From contig JADGBZ010000028.1 in assembly GCA_015231175.1 (NCBI GenBank), positions 1 to 40,725 on the forward strand: 40,725 nucleotides of DNA, written 5' to 3'. Source of the DNA: Magnetococcales bacterium. GTDB taxonomy: Bacteria > Pseudomonadota > Magnetococcia > Magnetococcales > DC0425bin3. Positions within the stretch are counted from its first letter, which is position 1; every line of letters starts with the position of its first letter. Position numbers and translations under genes: made by a program. Below the pieces are notes generated by a model, which made no database searches, had not been told where the DNA came from, and saw only the letters and a program-made list of their open reading frames with translations. Below are positions 6,077 to 39,090 of the stretch, in pieces.

Positions 6077-6158
6077 TTTGTCTGGCCTGATTGCGGTGAT
6101 GACTTACCTATTCCCTTCTTCATCGAGTTCGAGTATGTTCGCTGGCAGCGAATTTTTC

Positions 6159-6187
6159 TTGCGATCAGAGAGTCACCCTGATATAGT
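6159..6187 (+). promoter_or_regulatory. sigma70-like promoter of the retron locus
   Basis: TTGCGA at 6159-6164 and TATAGT at 6182-6187 are separated by 17 bp. A start near 6194 would give a leader of about 135 nt before the predicted a1 arm of the retron RNA. The leader can fold: GGTAGGG at 6200-6206 pairs with CCCTACC at 6258-6264, and there is a GGGGC-TTCG-GCCCC hairpin at 6247-6260. Confidence 0.5.
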
Positions 6188-6328
6188 TATGTCATGCTTG
6201 GTAGGGAAGATGTCGCATTTCCATGGAATCGCTTAAGCGGTTCGCGGGGGCTTCGGCCCCTACCTTGACCACCCCCGGCACTGTGACTCTGTGTCGATGG
6301 CTGCACGCGAGTGTTGCCGTTGCGCGGT

Positions 6329-6499
6329 ACGGAGTATCGGGAAAGGGTTTAATCAAAGCCGTCGAGATGCGGCTTTGATCGAAATCGGTTAGGAGTAAAC
6401 CCTCGTCTGACTTCCATCTCTGAATGTTCGCGACGCTCTGCGCAATCCTGCACAGGGTGCATTCAGGGAGATGAGATATGAACAGGTCAGATACTCCGT
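6329..6499 (+). ncRNA. retron msr-msd RNA (predicted)
   Basis: The order of paired elements fits a retron RNA. Arm a1 ACGGAGTATC (6329-6338) is fully complementary to a2 GATACTCCGT (6490-6499). Inside lies an msr-type hairpin, ATCAAAGCCG (6352-6361) with CGGCTTTGAT (6370-6379), enclosed by GGGTTTA/TAAACCC (6345-6351/6396-6402). Then comes a long msd-type hairpin, CATCTCTGAATG (6415-6426) against CATTCA-GG-GAGATG (6460-6473). The first G after a1 (6339) is the natural candidate for the branching guanosine. A competing 9-bp helix, CCTCGTCTG (6401-6409) with CAGACGAGG (6507-6515), cannot coexist with a1/a2 without a pseudoknot. The RNA is upstream of the HTH and reverse transcriptase genes, as in known retrons. 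Exact ends are inferred. Confidence 0.72.
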
Positions 6500-6651
6500 C
6501 AAGCAACAGACGAGGGGAGCCGGGCAGGCGTGCATTACGGTGGATTGGCCGGGCCTTGGTTAGGCCGCACGTACTGATGGCTGTGATCAGGGTAGCGATG
6601 GCTATCGTCAAGTTGATTGCATACATTCGGGAACTGTTCGGTGACTCCTGA
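6478..6651 (+). CDS. small retron-overlapping ORF, candidate toxic effector (57 aa)
   Basis: ATG at 6478 has a good Shine-Dalgarno, GGGAG at 6466-6470, seven bases upstream. An in-frame TGA at 6472 excludes any longer start. The product has an arginine-rich first half (R3, 11, 12, 17, 18, 21, 25, 29) and then a hydrophobic segment, HVLMAVIRVAMAIVKLIAYI, at residues 31-50. R38, K45 and R51 recur about every seven residues, giving an amphipathic or membrane-seeking helix. The stop at 6651 is 17 bp before the HTH gene. The Shine-Dalgarno lies inside the 3' arm of the msd hairpin, and the start codon lies before a2, within the part expected to be reverse transcribed. I infer a toxin or effector repressed by msDNA synthesis. 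It could be a chance ORF, but its signals and hydrophobicity argue against that. Confidence 0.6.
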   Translation: MNRSDTPSSNRRGEPGRRALRWIGRALVRPHVLMAVIRVAMAIVKLIAYIRELFGDS

Positions 6652-6668
6652 CCAACTTTCACATAAGA

Positions 6669-7001
6669 ATGAGTCCTATGCTCAACGAAGCTCTAAAGAT
6701 GGTTCGGCTATTCCACCGCCAGAACCAAGTCCAGGTTTCCCAGGGAACCGGCCTCTCGAAGTCGTATATCTCCGAAATTGAGTCAGGTCGTAAAAAGGTC
6801 TCCATGGACGTACTGGAGAAGTATGCTTCCTACTTCAGCATGCCCCTCTCGTCTCTTCTCTTTTTTGCCGAGCAATCAGCGAATCAAAAAGCAGGTGACG
6901 ACATTCGGGAAGTTGTCGCAGAAAAGGTCATCAAAATGTTGGACTGGTTGGTCTCGGTTTCTGAGTTTGATAAGACGGTAGATGGGAGAGGAAAGAGGTG
7001 A
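6669..7001 (+). CDS. XRE/Cro-CI family HTH protein (retron accessory)
   Basis: 110 residues. Residues ~5-60 form a Cro/CI helix-turn-helix: QVQVSQGTGLSKSYISEIES is followed by GRKKVSMDVLEKYASYF, with the recognition helix at SKSYISEIESG. A short C-terminal helical tail follows. It overlaps the reverse transcriptase gene by 4 bp (GTGA), so the two are co-translated. Retrons with an HTH partner form a recognised type (type VI in the published typology, as I recall). The protein may repress the locus or act as part of the retron complex. The start could also be the second ATG at 6678; neither has a strong ribosome-binding site. Confidence 0.82.
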   Translation: MSPMLNEALKMVRLFHRQNQVQVSQGTGLSKSYISEIESGRKKVSMDVLEKYASYFSMPLSSLLFFAEQSANQKAGDDIREVVAEKVIKMLDWLVSVSEFDKTVDGRGKR

Positions 7002-7936
7002 ATCGTCATCCCCTGAACCAGTCACCTTTCTTCAAACTCAGATCCAGAAAGAAGCTTGCTAATATTCTGGGATTGGGACTCAAGGATCTGGAGGTGTTTG
7101 CCCAAAATGAGGCTGATGAGAACTATAGACTGTTCGAGATCAGGAGGGGAGGCAAGGCTCGACCTATCCAATGGCCAATACCATGCCTACAGCGTATTCA
7201 TAAACGCGTTTGCGACCTTCTTGCTCGGATAGAGACGCCTAATTATCTGCACTCAGCCATCAAAGGTCGGTCGTATCTGTCTAATGCCAAAGCTCATTCG
7301 GGCGATACGGCACTGGTGAAGGTGGACATCAGGAAGTTTTTTCCATCTGTCACGGTACAGTCCGTCAAAAGCTTTTTCCTCAAAACAATGGGGTGTAGCC
7401 CTGATGTCGCGGCTGTGCTGTCCAAGGTTCTCACAGTGTACGGTCACCTGCCGACTGGAAGCAGTGTCAGTCCGATTTTGTCATTTTATGCCCACCTGGA
7501 CATGTTTGGGGAAATCGAACAGTTGGCCAGGAAGCGTGGGGCAGTGATGACCTGCTATGTGGATGACATGTGCTTTTCTGGGAGGAGTGTAACGCGCAAA
7601 TTTTTATACGAGGTGAGGCTGATCATTCATCGGCATGGATTGAAGACCCACAAGATCCATTGTTTTGCTCCTGGGGTACCAAGAATTGTTACTGGTGTCG
7701 TAGTTACCGGTGATGGGATGAAGCTACCTAACAAACGGCACCAGGCAATTGCTGAGGATTTTGCGAAATTCCAATCCAGCTTGGATGAAAAGCAGAAATT
7801 GAAAATCTTTCAGTCTCTACTCGGAAGGGTCAATGAGGCATCACAAATTGAGCCAAGGTGGAAGAACAAGGCAACTTCTTTGTGTCAAGAAGTGAATAAA
7901 ATGTTATATTGTGGCAGACAAAATGACGGATGTTGA
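6998..7936 (+). CDS. retron reverse transcriptase
   Basis: 312 residues, normal for retron RTs. Visible motifs: SNAKAH (96-100 gives the retron NAxxH signature), VDIRKFFPS with catalytic Asp 110, LPTGSSVSP (151-159), the catalytic YVDD box (187-190, with Asp 189/190) and IVTG (VTG signature at 231-233), which contacts the msr RNA in retrons. NAxxH and VTG together separate retron RTs from group II intron and DGR enzymes. The GTG start at 6998 follows a purine-rich GAGAGGAAAGAG stretch and overlaps the HTH stop. The enzyme should prime from the 2'-OH of a guanosine in the upstream RNA and copy the msd to make msDNA. No fused effector domain is present. Confidence 0.93.
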   Translation: MNRHPLNQSPFFKLRSRKKLANILGLGLKDLEVFAQNEADENYRLFEIRRGGKARPIQWPIPCLQRIHKRVCDLLARIETPNYLHSAIKGRSYLSNAKAHSGDTALVKVDIRKFFPSVTVQSVKSFFLKTMGCSPDVAAVLSKVLTVYGHLPTGSSVSPILSFYAHLDMFGEIEQLARKRGAVMTCYVDDMCFSGRSVTRKFLYEVRLIIHRHGLKTHKIHCFAPGVPRIVTGVVVTGDGMKLPNKRHQAIAEDFAKFQSSLDEKQKLKIFQSLLGRVNEASQIEPRWKNKATSLCQEVNKMLYCGRQNDGC

Positions 7937-7974: not shown

Positions 7975-8298
7975 ATGGTAAACGAATATACCATTTCCGA
8001 AGCCGTAAACCGGTTGGTCAATATAGCCAAACCGGCCAAGGTGATCCTGTTCGGTTCCTATGCCACCGGCGAGGCTACCGACGATTCCGACTTGGACTTC
8101 ATGATTATTGAACCGAACTCCACCATGACAAGCCAAGATCGAGTTGCGCTCCGAGACGCGGTGGGGGATATTGGGACCGGCGTGGACGTGTTGATATTCA
8201 CCGAGGAAGAAGCCAATCGGCGGGGCCAGGTTCCCGGAACGGTCATCTATTGGGCGCTCAGGGAAGGGCGGGTGATGTATGAATCTACCGCACATTGA
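7975..8298 (+). CDS. MNT-type minimal nucleotidyltransferase (antitoxin-like)
   Basis: 107 residues with the nucleotidyltransferase core GS-x10-D-x-D: FGSYATGEATDDSDLDFMI, residues ~26-44. MNT proteins pair with HEPN proteins; in characterised pairs the MNT protein adenylylates the HEPN toxin. The start at 7975 has GGAG eight bases upstream. The gene begins 38 bp after the retron RT stop, and its 3' end overlaps the next gene by 20 bp, so the pair is translationally coupled. It may ride on the retron transcript. Confidence 0.85.
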   Translation: MVNEYTISEAVNRLVNIAKPAKVILFGSYATGEATDDSDLDFMIIEPNSTMTSQDRVALRDAVGDIGTGVDVLIFTEEEANRRGQVPGTVIYWALREGRVMYESTAH

Positions 8299-8665
8299 GG
8301 AAGCCCTGCGGTCTCTTCGGTTGGCGGACCGGGATATCGCCGCTTTCGAGACTTTGCGGGATGCTCCTCGGTCCTCCCTCGTATCTGCCTGTTTTCACGC
8401 CCAACAGGCCGTGGAGAAGTGCCTCAAGGCTGTTCTGTTCCAAAATCGCATCGAATTCCGACGCACCCATGATCTTACGGTATTGACGCGCCTCTTGCGC
8501 GATAATGGCGTCACTCTGCCCGTTTTGGATGAGCGTTTGGCCGTATTGAATCCTTGCGCCGTGGATTTCCGTTACGACGAGGAAACCGCCGACCTTCCCG
8601 ATCGTGAGTCGATAACTGCCTTGGTGACGACGTTGAGGGAGTGGTCTGGAACATTGGTGGGGTAA
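8279..8665 (+). CDS. HEPN domain protein (PF05168-like), partner of MNT
   Basis: 128 residues, mostly helical. It has the HEPN pattern FHAQQAVEKCLKAVLFQN (residues ~37-54) and the family's THDLTVLTRLL element (~62-72). The canonical RNase motif R-x4-6-H is not obvious: the histidine of RRTHDL is preceded by arginines only two to three positions away. It may therefore be a binding partner, or a toxin with a variant site. Gene order MNT-then-HEPN with overlap is standard for these two-gene modules. It converges on iscX 52 bp away. Confidence 0.8.
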   Translation: MNLPHIEEALRSLRLADRDIAAFETLRDAPRSSLVSACFHAQQAVEKCLKAVLFQNRIEFRRTHDLTVLTRLLRDNGVTLPVLDERLAVLNPCAVDFRYDEETADLPDRESITALVTTLREWSGTLVG

Positions 8666-8717: not shown

Positions 8718-8924
8718 TCACGCCCTCTCATCCAACCACGCCATCTGGATGGCTTCGAGGATTTTCTCGTTGCACCGCTCCGGCGGGTCGGAAAAACCGG
8801 GCAACGCCAACACCCACTGCATGAGATCGGTAAAACGCACCGAGAGGGGATCCACATCCGGCTTGCTGTCGGCCAGGGCGAGGGCGATGTCGGAGACATC
8901 GGTCCACTTCAGTTGCATGGGCAT
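8718..8924 (-). CDS. iscX: Fe-S assembly protein IscX
   Basis: 68 residues. The features KWTDVSDIALALAD at the start, DPLSVRFTDLMQWVLALPGF in the middle and EKILEAIQMAWLDE at the end define IscX (YfhJ). This small acidic protein binds IscS and iron and tunes cluster assembly. It is the last gene of the isc operon, starting one base after the fdx stop (TGA-g-ATG). An AAGGA-type ribosome-binding site overlaps the end of fdx. Confidence 0.93.
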   Translation of the reverse strand: MPMQLKWTDVSDIALALADSKPDVDPLSVRFTDLMQWVLALPGFSDPPERCNEKILEAIQMAWLDERA

Positions 8925-8925
8925 C

Positions 8926-9267
8926 TCATGTTCCTTTTTTGTTTTTGTCCACACTGATGTTGACGGTGTAGGTCGGGATGGTGACCCGCAACCCGTCCAG
9001 GGCATCGCTGATCGTCACCTGACAGGCCAGGCGGCTGGTGGGGGTCAATCCGAAAGCCTCGTCCAGCACATCTTCTTCCTCCTCGGAAGCCTCCTCCAAA
9101 CGGTCGAACCACTCCGGGTCAACGATCACATGGCAGGTCGAGCAGGCCAGGGAACCCTCGCAGGCCCCCTCCAGGGGGAGGTTGTGTTCGTGGGCGGCCT
9201 CCAGGAGGGAGATACCGGCCTCCACCTCCACGGTTTGTTGCATGGGCAGAAAGGTGATCCTGGGCAT
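8926..9267 (-). CDS. fdx: ISC-type [2Fe-2S] ferredoxin
   Basis: 113 residues. The cluster ligands are visible as C-x5-C-x2-C (CEGSLACSTC, ~36-45) and a fourth cysteine in SRLACQV (~82). The acidic stretch EEASEEEEDVLDEAFGL matches the docking surface of ISC ferredoxins. It donates electrons for cluster assembly on IscU. It lies 12 bp after hscA and is coupled to iscX. Confidence 0.95.
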   Translation of the reverse strand: MPRITFLPMQQTVEVEAGISLLEAAHEHNLPLEGACEGSLACSTCHVIVDPEWFDRLEEASEEEEDVLDEAFGLTPTSRLACQVTISDALDGLRVTIPTYTVNISVDKNKKGT

Positions 9268-9279
9268 GGTTGGATAGTC

Positions 9280-11154
9280 CTATTCAAAGTCAGTCAGTTG
9301 GCGACCGGTCATGACAGCTTTTATGTTGTGATCCATGCGCCGCTGGGCGAAGAAGGTTGTGGCCCGATCCAAATCCTGGATGCGATCCAGGATGGCATGA
9401 TGATTCTCCTGCCCGATGGCTGCACGCAGAGCCAGCATGCTGGCCTCGATGGGTTGCCATTCGGCGTCGGTCAACAGGTGCCGGTCGGTGGCCAGGGCGG
9501 CCTGGAGGGCGACCAGAACTCGTTCGGCATCGACCCGTGCCTCCTGGAGATGGCGGCGTTGCAAATCCTCTTCGCCATGTTCCAGGGCCTCCCGCAACAT
9601 GCGTTCAATCTCGCCGTCACCCAAACCATAGGAGGGTTTGACGGCCACGGATTGTTCCACCCCGGTGGTTTGTTCCCGGGCGGATACGGTCAGGAGGCCA
9701 TCGGCATCGACCTGAAAGGTGACCCGGATGCGCGCCGCCCCGGCCACCATCGGGGGAATGCCCCGCAACTCAAACCGGGCCAGAGATCGGCACTGCTCGA
9801 CCGTTTCCCGTTCCCCCTGCACCACATGGATGGCCATGGCCCCCTGTCCATCCTTGAAGGTGGTGAACTCCTGCGCCCGGGCGGTCGGGATGGGACTGTT
9901 GCGCGGCACCACCTTTTCCACCAGGCCGCCCATGGTTTCCAGCCCCAGGGAGAGGGGGGTCACATCCAGCAGCAGCACATCCGAACGTTGTCGGCCTGCC
10001 AGCAGGTCAGCCTGGATGGCTGCTCCCAGGGCGACGATCTGGTCGGGGTCCAGATCGACCAGCGGCTCCTGTTTGAACAGGTCGGCCACAAAATCCCGAA
10101 TGGTCGGCATGCGGGTGGAGCCGCCGACCAGGACCACCCCCTGGAGATCTTCCGGGGTGACTCCGGCGTCCTTCAGGGCGCGCCGACAGGGCACACCGGT
10201 GGCGCGCACGTACTCCTGGGTCAGGGCGGCAAATTCGGCGCGTCCCACCTCCCGGCGATAGGAACGCCCATCGGGAAAAGCCAGATTCGCCTCAACCATG
10301 GCTGCCGTGGTCAGGGCCTCTTTGACCCGCCGGGCTTCCTGAAACGCGCCATGCAGTTGTCCCGGAGTGGGGGAGGTCAGCTCCATTTCCTGCAAAAACA
10401 ACATGCCCAGGCGACGATCAAAATCATCTCCCCCCAACGCCGAGTTGCCCCCGGTGGCCATCACCTGAAAGACCCCCTGGGTCAGTTTCAGGATGGAAAT
10501 ATCGAAGGTGCCGCCCCCCAGGTCGTAGATGGCGTACACCCCCTCCCGGTTTTGGTCCAGGCCATAGGCCAGCGCGGCGGCGGTGGGTTCGTTGACCAAG
10601 CGCAGCACCTCCAGGCCGGCCAGGCGGCAGGCATCTTTGGTGGCTTGCCGCTGGGCATCATCGAAATAGGCCGGAACCGTGACCACCGCACCATACAACG
10701 GCCCACCCAGGGTGGCTTCGGCGCGTTTTTTTAAATTTTCCAATATTTTTGCTGAGATTTCCACCGGCGACCACCCACGCCCACCGGCATGAAACCTGAC
10801 CATGCCACCCGCGCCGGCCTCCAGGCGATAGCCACCTGCCGGCACATCCGCCAACCCCCGGCCCATGAACCGCTTGACCGAAACGATGGTCTCTTCCGGA
10901 TGGGTGATGGCCAGTGGATGCGCCTCCCGGCCCACCAGGACGTTGCCGTCGGCCCCCAGGTGGACGATCGAAGGGAGGGAGAGATGACCCGCACCATCGG
11001 GGATACAGGCCGGCGCCCCTTGCAGGTTCATGGCTGCCACCAGGGAGAAGGTCGTGCCCAGATCGATGCCCACCACGCGGCGCGGCTCGATGGGACGTGC
11101 GTCGTGTGGTTTTGGGGCGGCGCCGGGTTCGGCGATATCCATCAACACATCCAT
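9280..11154 (-). CDS. hscA: Hsp70-family chaperone HscA
   Basis: 624 residues, close to the usual ~620. The nucleotide-binding domain shows [13 protein letters not shown] (phosphate 1), [13 protein letters not shown] (phosphate 2) and [13 protein letters not shown] (adenosine). The substrate-binding domain (~400-520) has [14 protein letters not shown], followed by the helical lid. HscA receives IscU-bound clusters from HscB and drives their transfer with ATP. The ATG at 11154 has GAGGGA five bases upstream. A longer frame exists upstream but is not protein-like. It is the longest gene of the operon and is separated from hscB by a small RHH gene. Confidence 0.95.
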
Positions 11155-11176
11155 ATTTTCCCTCGATTCCGTAGCG

Positions 11177-11416
11177 TCAAGGAGAACACTTTTCACGCAA
11201 CCTGACCTTGATCTTCTCCGAGACATCCCTTGATGCATCCGGGTCGCCCATGGGGGTGTTGCTGCGTACAGCGCTCAACAGGTCAGCCGGACTTTTGAGG
11301 CCAAGGGTCCGTTCCAGGGTGTCAGTGACGAAGGTCGACTCAGTCAGGCCAAGCCGTTTTGCCTCTTGTGCCATACGCGCTTCCAAAGCTGAGTCCAATC
11401 GAATCGACATGGTCAT
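11177..11416 (-). CDS. small ribbon-helix-helix (CopG/antitoxin-like) protein inside the isc operon
   Basis: 79 residues from the ATG at 11416 (GGAG six bases upstream). The pattern [20 protein letters not shown] then [13 protein letters not shown] is a ribbon-helix-helix DNA-binding fold: a beta strand with alternating polar residues, then two helices. The C-terminal ~35 residues ([12 protein letters not shown] then charged) resemble toxin-binding tails of RHH antitoxins. No toxin gene is adjacent: hscB ends 24 bp upstream and hscA starts 22 bp downstream. It is not a standard isc gene. It could be an orphan antitoxin or a local regulator. Confidence 0.72.
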
Positions 11417-39014: not shown

Positions 39015-39090
39015 GGGCCGTTAGCTCAGTCGGTAGAGCAACAGACTTTTAATCTGTGGGTCGCTGGTTCGACTCCAGCACGGCTCACCA
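39015..39090 (+). tRNA. tRNA-Lys (anticodon UUU)
   Basis: 76 nt including an encoded CCA. Acceptor GGGCCGT pairs with ACGGCTC (one G-U). The D arm has TAGCTCAGTCGGTAGAGCA. The anticodon stem CAGA/TCTG holds loop CTTTTAA with anticodon TTT. The T arm has GGTTCGACTCC. A terminator follows 16 bp later. Confidence 0.97.

Follow-up and report, generated by a model that had tools for sequence, protein, structure and literature searches.

The window, a 40,725-nucleotide contig from a Magnetococcales bacterium (GenBank assembly GCA_015231175.1, contig JADGBZ010000028.1), carries at 6138–7936 a locus that, judged by its genes and motifs, is a type VI retron, a type reportedly defined by Mestre et al. 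2020. It encodes a helix-turn-helix (HTH) protein and a reverse transcriptase (RT), which match the PADLOC type VI models HTH_VI and RT_VI best and whose genes are adjacent, the arrangement by which type VI is recognised (Table 1). Retron RTs bear the hallmark motifs NAxxH, VTG and YxDD; the window RT reads NAKAH, VTG and YVDD, and across the family NAxxH is present in 49/49, VTG (counted with a lax pattern) in 49/49 and YxDD in 48/49 RTs. The PDB relatives of the window RT are likewise retron RTs, with Ec67 as the best match (4.5e-17). These results agree with the first-pass annotation, which had called a retron here and had seen no obvious killer domain in the HTH-RT pair: a Pfam search of the two window proteins returned no domain beyond HTH and RT. 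Neither protein shows any further recognisable domain across the type VI loci covered here.

Table 1. Features of the retron locus, with positions in the window.
Feature	Position	Strand	Basis
Palindromic operator TTCGCT-N3-AGCGAA, perfect here	6138..6152	+	Conserved motif
Promoter-like -35 TTGCGA, -10 TATAGT, spacer 17	6159..6187	+	Place after operator
a1, 5' arm of a1/a2 helix, TGCTTGGT	6195..6202	+	Same sequence and place in L001; family z 9.9; weak in the window alone
msr-side stem-loop, 10 perfect pairs, loop 8	6352..6379	+	Inverted repeat I7
X1, 5' arm of third helix, CCCTCGTCTG	6400..6409	+	Family z; compensatory changes in relatives
Inferred reverse-transcription template (predicted msd), 5' limit approximate	6410..6497	+	a2 position and known retron RT start
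msd hairpin, arms 6417-6427 and 6459-6469	6417..6469	+	RNA fold; family z 13.7
Shine-Dalgarno GGGAG of small ORF	6466..6470	+	Read in sequence
Small ORF encoding a candidate effector of 57 aa with a basic N half and a hydrophobic helix near 30-55	6478..6651	+	Conservation, dN/dS, helix model
a2, GTCAAGCA, within small ORF	6498..6505	+	Pairing kept in L001; window scan
X2, CAGACGAGGG, within small ORF	6507..6516	+	Inverted repeat; family helix; fold
HTH protein, 110 aa, PADLOC HTH_VI	6669..7001	+	PADLOC best match 9e-31; Pfam HTH_3
Retron reverse transcriptase, 312 aa, PADLOC RT_VI	6998..7936	+	PADLOC best match 1.6e-90

A genome search found a single retron copy in the genome of the window, and a related HTH occurred in 2/48 genomes of the same order, the window's own among the two, a patchy presence that suits a mobile unit. 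The HTH-RT locus was also found on phages and plasmids, and the phage-borne P2_2H1 locus was matched in 99/5426 complete E. coli genomes, with a query cover of at least 80% in 98; in H110 (20% query cover), inspection showed the ORF, HTH and RT all present. A hybrid sensor kinase gene flanks the retron on the left. To the right of the RT, at 7975–8665, overlapping nucleotidyltransferase (NTP_transf_2) and HEPN genes assigned by Pfam likely form a separate MNT/HEPN toxin-antitoxin pair, and beside these defence genes the minus strand carries Fe-S assembly genes (8721–11238; PF04384, 2Fe-2S ferredoxin, Hsp70). At the gathering score, Rfam reported a single tRNA in the whole window (39015–39087).

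A small ORF overlaps the end of the predicted retron RNA and precedes the HTH gene. It starts with an ATG at 6478 and ends with a TGA at 6649–6651, and the nearest in-frame stop 5' of the ATG is a TGA at 6472; the Shine-Dalgarno sequence, start, upstream stop and length of 57 codons are all as the first-pass annotation had read them. The predicted product also has the described layout of a basic half followed by a hydrophobic helix, with a net charge of +5 in its N half and a 19-residue hydrophobicity peak at residues 32–50 (mean Kyte-Doolittle 2.30). AlphaFold placed helices at residues 15–26 and 30–55, the second of them confidently, with a pTM of 0.35. The window's small protein had no family match at E 0.001 in PADLOC, Pfam (best E 0.11), NCBIfam or PHROGs; a copy from a Klebsiella phage matched phrog_15287 and phrog_5826, both of unknown function.

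Upstream of the ORF we found a palindromic operator, which recurs with at most 2 mismatches in 39/42 loci, 15 of them perfect, compared with about 3% of plain shuffles, the motif having been derived from the same 42 loci before counting. It was absent in L049, L059 and L065, and its place or fit was doubtful in L033, L062 and L016, exceptions suggesting that part of the enterobacterial clade may differ. From its conservation and position, the operator is probably bound by the HTH protein. The promoter-like element that follows would begin a transcript just before a1, and such a match is no rarer than chance (2 sites found vs 2.2 expected).

To follow the small ORF through relatives, we assembled 131 loci, many of them overlapping, from genome contigs, viral scans, tblastn against phages and plasmids, E. 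coli, genomes and 20 annotated regions; a viral scan using the window RT by itself yielded one weak locus. In 112/131 loci an HTH either preceded an RT or stood close to a locus end, and 69 of these loci are distinct by sequence. The count excludes loci that lack an HTH-RT pair, among them L043, in which no HTH was found, and L009 and L010, which in addition have only a partial RT. An ORF of 35–85 codons with a basic N half and a hydrophobic or amphipathic C half preceded the HTH in 64/69 distinct HTH-RT loci and corresponds to the small auxiliary gene reported as a type VI feature in the relevant sections of PMC8541194. Because the ORF was chosen by a score favouring hydrophobic and basic products, composition counts lean that way; when the choice was repeated by ATG and Shine-Dalgarno alone, the same ORF emerged in 48/49 loci. 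Elsewhere, L017, L018 and L020, the last from the same genus as the window, have instead a 68–82-codon ORF just before the HTH, with a start that is not basic and a hydrophobic end. L077 has a 31-codon ORF with a Shine-Dalgarno sequence, under the 35-codon limit, and L100 has no small ORF and an HTH that is only distantly related. Loss of the frame with HTH and RT kept, which the first-pass annotation had named as grounds for refutation, was seen in 1/64 loci: L003, counted among the 64, has an in-frame TAG at codon 39 and open HTH and RT frames, and a frameshift was ruled out as its lesion. In L011 (Bradyrhizobium), the RT frame is split in two and the small ORF is open.

Thinning at 88% identity over at least 250 bases left 50 non-redundant loci, or 49 without L003. 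Among these 49, the start codon is ATG in 48 and GTG in one (L081), a Shine-Dalgarno sequence of at least 4 bases precedes the ORF in 48, and the distance to the HTH is 25–86 nt. The C half of the product exceeds the N half in hydrophobicity in 49/49, and the median N-half charge is +5. A 19-residue window above 1.6, plainly transmembrane-like, occurs in 20/49 products and is missing from the other 29. Gammaproteobacterial products are amphipathic and do not look plainly transmembrane. An ATG ORF of 35–85 codons with a Shine-Dalgarno sequence of at least 4 bases stands at this position in 47/49 loci, compared with 69/980 dinucleotide shuffles (7%) and 6/49 reverse strands by the same criterion.

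The small ORF is a conserved coding gene under purifying selection, as judged from substitution patterns. Pairwise dN/dS was 0.42 for the window and L001, 0.46 for L002 and L004, and 0.21 for L035 and L070; pooled values were 0.28 for 11 gammaproteobacterial and 0.45 for 6 alphaproteobacterial sequences. Among equal-length pairs, to which the frame comparison was confined, in-frame values of 0.28 and 0.42 rose out of frame to 1.04 and 0.85, or 1.38 and 0.76. Within codons 1–15, dN/dS was 0.77 (window vs L001), 0.94 (L002 vs L004) and 0.17 (gammaproteobacterial set); the first two values imply little constraint on the protein in this stretch, or constraint that is obscured where the RNA is paired. 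From codon 16 onward it was 0.32 and 0.47 in two clades.

RNA folding and a family-wide helix test placed three helices around the ORF start, a signal that is strong on the family average and not decisive locus by locus. The test took the best ungapped helix in each of 50 loci, and its null paired each locus's own upstream region with the ORF of another locus. The z-scores, which overstate independence because clade-mates are related and which come from windows chosen after inspecting an earlier scan of largely the same loci, were 14.5 for helix X (X1 region, -115 to -48, with +8 to +48; 24/50 loci above the null 95%), 9.9 for a1/a2 (a1 region, -330 to -200, with +4 to +40; 12/50) and 13.7 for the msd hairpin (5' arm with the Shine-Dalgarno arm; 24/50). 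Four control windows gave z 0.4, -0.3, -0.1 and 1.5. Helix X was not evident in L002, L003, L004 and L082 (scores 15.6–17.0). In a scan of 24-nt windows against the same kind of null, the a1 region paired with +0 to +39 (z 5.8, 7.3) and with nothing from -150 to +9, and the X1 region paired with the Shine-Dalgarno arm (z 10.1) and with +15 to +39 (z 17.8). The same scan showed the a1 region to be complementary, less strongly, to ORF +90 to +129 as well (z 3.8, 2.6). Rfam had no match in 6100–6700 even at E 1.

In the window itself, the minimum-energy fold of 6193–6520 (z -4.75) contained all ten X pairs and the hairpin and lacked a1/a2; a minimum-energy fold is unable to show a pseudoknot. The a1/a2 pair 6195–6202/6498–6505 scored 16.6 there vs a null mean of 16.4, so the window's a1 rests on homology. 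An earlier assignment of a1 to 6329–6338 did not hold: its 10-bp pairing with 6490–6499 exists (a perfect helix of at least 10 bp arose in 20/2000 shuffles), but the nearest relative, L001, lacks it and pairs this region over 6 bp at best. This excludes it as the conserved a1/a2; 6195–6202 is the better candidate. The a1/a2 repeats flanking msr and msd that characterise a retron ncRNA are found at the family level (z 9.9 and covariation) and are weak in the window alone. Covariation was assessed on plain MAFFT alignments using for each the structure of a single row, a choice that gives this structure an advantage over slid versions: in 10 alphaproteobacterial sequences, 92.7% of cells pair and 15/27 pairs show two-sided change (2–4 when slid), and in 14 gammaproteobacterial sequences the values are 97.4% and 9/30 (0–5 when slid). 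Within the latter alignment (A4; 11 of 13 rows in the clade list plus L113–L115, several near-identical), helix X varies at 1/8 pairs and a1/a2 shows two-sided change at 1/7.

The order a1, X1, a2, X2 means that a1/a2 and X1/X2 would form a pseudoknot, and a2 and X2 fall within about the first 13 codons of the small ORF. As first described, the Shine-Dalgarno sequence lies in the 3' arm of the msd hairpin, which occupies 4/5 of its bases in the fold, and the ATG lies between hairpin and a2, whether a2 is placed at 6490–6499 as before or at 6498–6505. Shine-Dalgarno and ATG thus sit between the hairpin and a2, inside what would be the RT template.

We propose, with about evenly balanced confidence, that in the type VI operon (msr-msd, small ORF, HTH, RT) the small ORF is the effector and that RT copying through its ribosome-binding site shuts its translation. 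The product would probably be a cationic peptide that acts on membranes or arrests growth in another way, with the retron RNA as the 5' leader of its ORF. In other retrons, RT-catalysed DNA synthesis begins next to a2. Synthesis from a2 would here run back across the ATG and then the Shine-Dalgarno sequence, and on a copied transcript both would be held in a hybrid or taken away by RNase H. With the start site in the predicted template, it can be deduced that copying a transcript could only reduce its translation, whether or not RNase H acts. RT copying would keep the peptide off; msDNA, whose sequence complements the start site, may act on further transcripts as well; and the HTH may use the conserved operator to repress the promoter. 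Release of the peptide and growth arrest would follow when a phage blocks the RT, degrades msDNA or lifts repression. The fuller form of this proposal is tentative, and we place it somewhat below an even chance: msDNA synthesis would itself be the antitoxin, with the RT copying and RNase H removing the effector's ribosome-binding site, msDNA silencing further transcripts, and phage attack on RT, RNase H or single-stranded DNA turning the peptide on. The open HTH and RT of L003 beside its interrupted ORF fit a tolerated loss of toxin; the intact ORF of L011 beside a broken RT argues against a strict model in which the RT is the antitoxin, unless it reflects a sequencing error. In addition, the hairpin already hides the Shine-Dalgarno sequence, so the RT may be redundant for repression, and the RNA may in its default state be translated poorly, as described for tisB in the relevant part of PMC7708055. 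The share of plainly transmembrane-like products, 20/49, counts against the proposal. So do the helix counts taken locus by locus, the four loci in which helix X is not evident and the a1/a2 score at the null mean in the window. In two plasmid loci, a TIR-domain gene directly follows the RT (L045:2962–3921 and L046:2887–3852); it is possibly an extra effector there, which counts against the small ORF as effector in those two.

A conventional tripartite retron is the first alternative, and we consider it rather unlikely: the small toxin would always be made and held inactive by the HTH, the RT or the RT-msDNA complex, and the RNA overlap would serve compaction and co-expression. It accords with the general retron scheme outlined in PMC12548924, in which RT, ncRNA and RT-DNA sequester a toxic effector, and with the adjoining positions of ORF and HTH in the 64 loci, but it does not account for the family-wide placement of a2 and X2 within the ORF and of the start site within the template, or for the hidden Shine-Dalgarno sequence. 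There is a smaller chance that the protein is not a toxin, either serving as an accessory (e.g. an RNA/DNA-binding or membrane-tethering RT partner) or being encoded by a leader that tunes folding of the retron RNA. The basic N half, the 29/49 products that are not plainly transmembrane, the structurally closed ribosome-binding site and the retention of the ORF in L011 despite its broken RT would all suit such a role, but selection on codons 16 onward would be needless for a mere leader, and L003 lost the ORF and retained HTH and RT. A chance ORF within a non-coding RNA is most improbable: the frame is short and the window copy lacks a family match in the databases searched, but its conservation, its excess over shuffles, its purifying selection and its annotation as a gene in the 40 listed of 99 E. 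coli matches rule it out.

The retrons Ec86, Ec67, Kva2 and others share RT homology and the a1/a2-msr-msd plan with the window locus. In these retrons the RT-msDNA complex holds the effector, which is a separate or fused protein and is not known to be encoded by an ORF that begins within the msd, as the one here would. The general scheme of an effector held in this way is given in the relevant part of PMC12548924. In size and composition the small ORF product fits a type I toxin peptide, its toxicity being predicted, and tisB-istR1, as treated in the relevant part of PMC7708055, shares a small hydrophobic peptide, a structured leader, a sequestered ribosome-binding site, a pseudoknot and translational control. 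The pseudoknot here, in contrast, pairs with the coding region, and the antitoxin proposed here is DNA produced in cis by reverse transcription rather than the product of an antisense RNA gene; since it would be DNA, we do not claim membership of type I. DRT2, in which phage triggers reverse transcription of a toxic repetitive gene according to the relevant part of PMC12039810, likewise links reverse transcription to the output of a toxic reading frame, but it is not a retron, and its copying creates the gene (an on switch), whereas copying here would silence one (an off switch).

A near-constant small ORF that starts in the predicted RT template offers a candidate effector and a testable logic in which RT activity equals translational repression, and the overlap points to DNA synthesis as what may hold a self-poisoning peptide in check until viral interference. 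If true, this would be a use of retron DNA that needs no protein sequestration, and type VI retrons would be toxin-antitoxin systems with reverse transcription itself as the antitoxin. Occurrence on phages, plasmids and in 99/5426 E. coli genomes makes the proposal testable in laboratory strains.

The first-pass annotation had called the ORF hidden, which is only partly apt. Many records annotate the gene as a hypothetical protein, including each of the 40 listed of the 99 E. coli matches, and small auxiliary proteins of type VI retrons are already in print: PMC8541194, in the parts bearing on this type, names type VI retrons and cites Mestre 2020 for these proteins. Our literature search, with Mestre 2020 and most preprints outside it, found no description of a2 or the RT template on the small gene's start, of the pseudoknot, of the operator or of translational control, nor do the relevant sections of PMC8934634, PMC12548924 and PMC13405049 mention the overlap or the mechanism. 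The same parts of PMC8541194 point to short upstream genes in two phages and, for a Shewanella phage, discuss p31. In Shewanella phage MuM16-1 (L034), p31 lies on the opposite strand, and the ORF before the HTH is another gene, an unannotated 48-codon frame of the kind described here, with a Shine-Dalgarno sequence, located between 931 and 1661.
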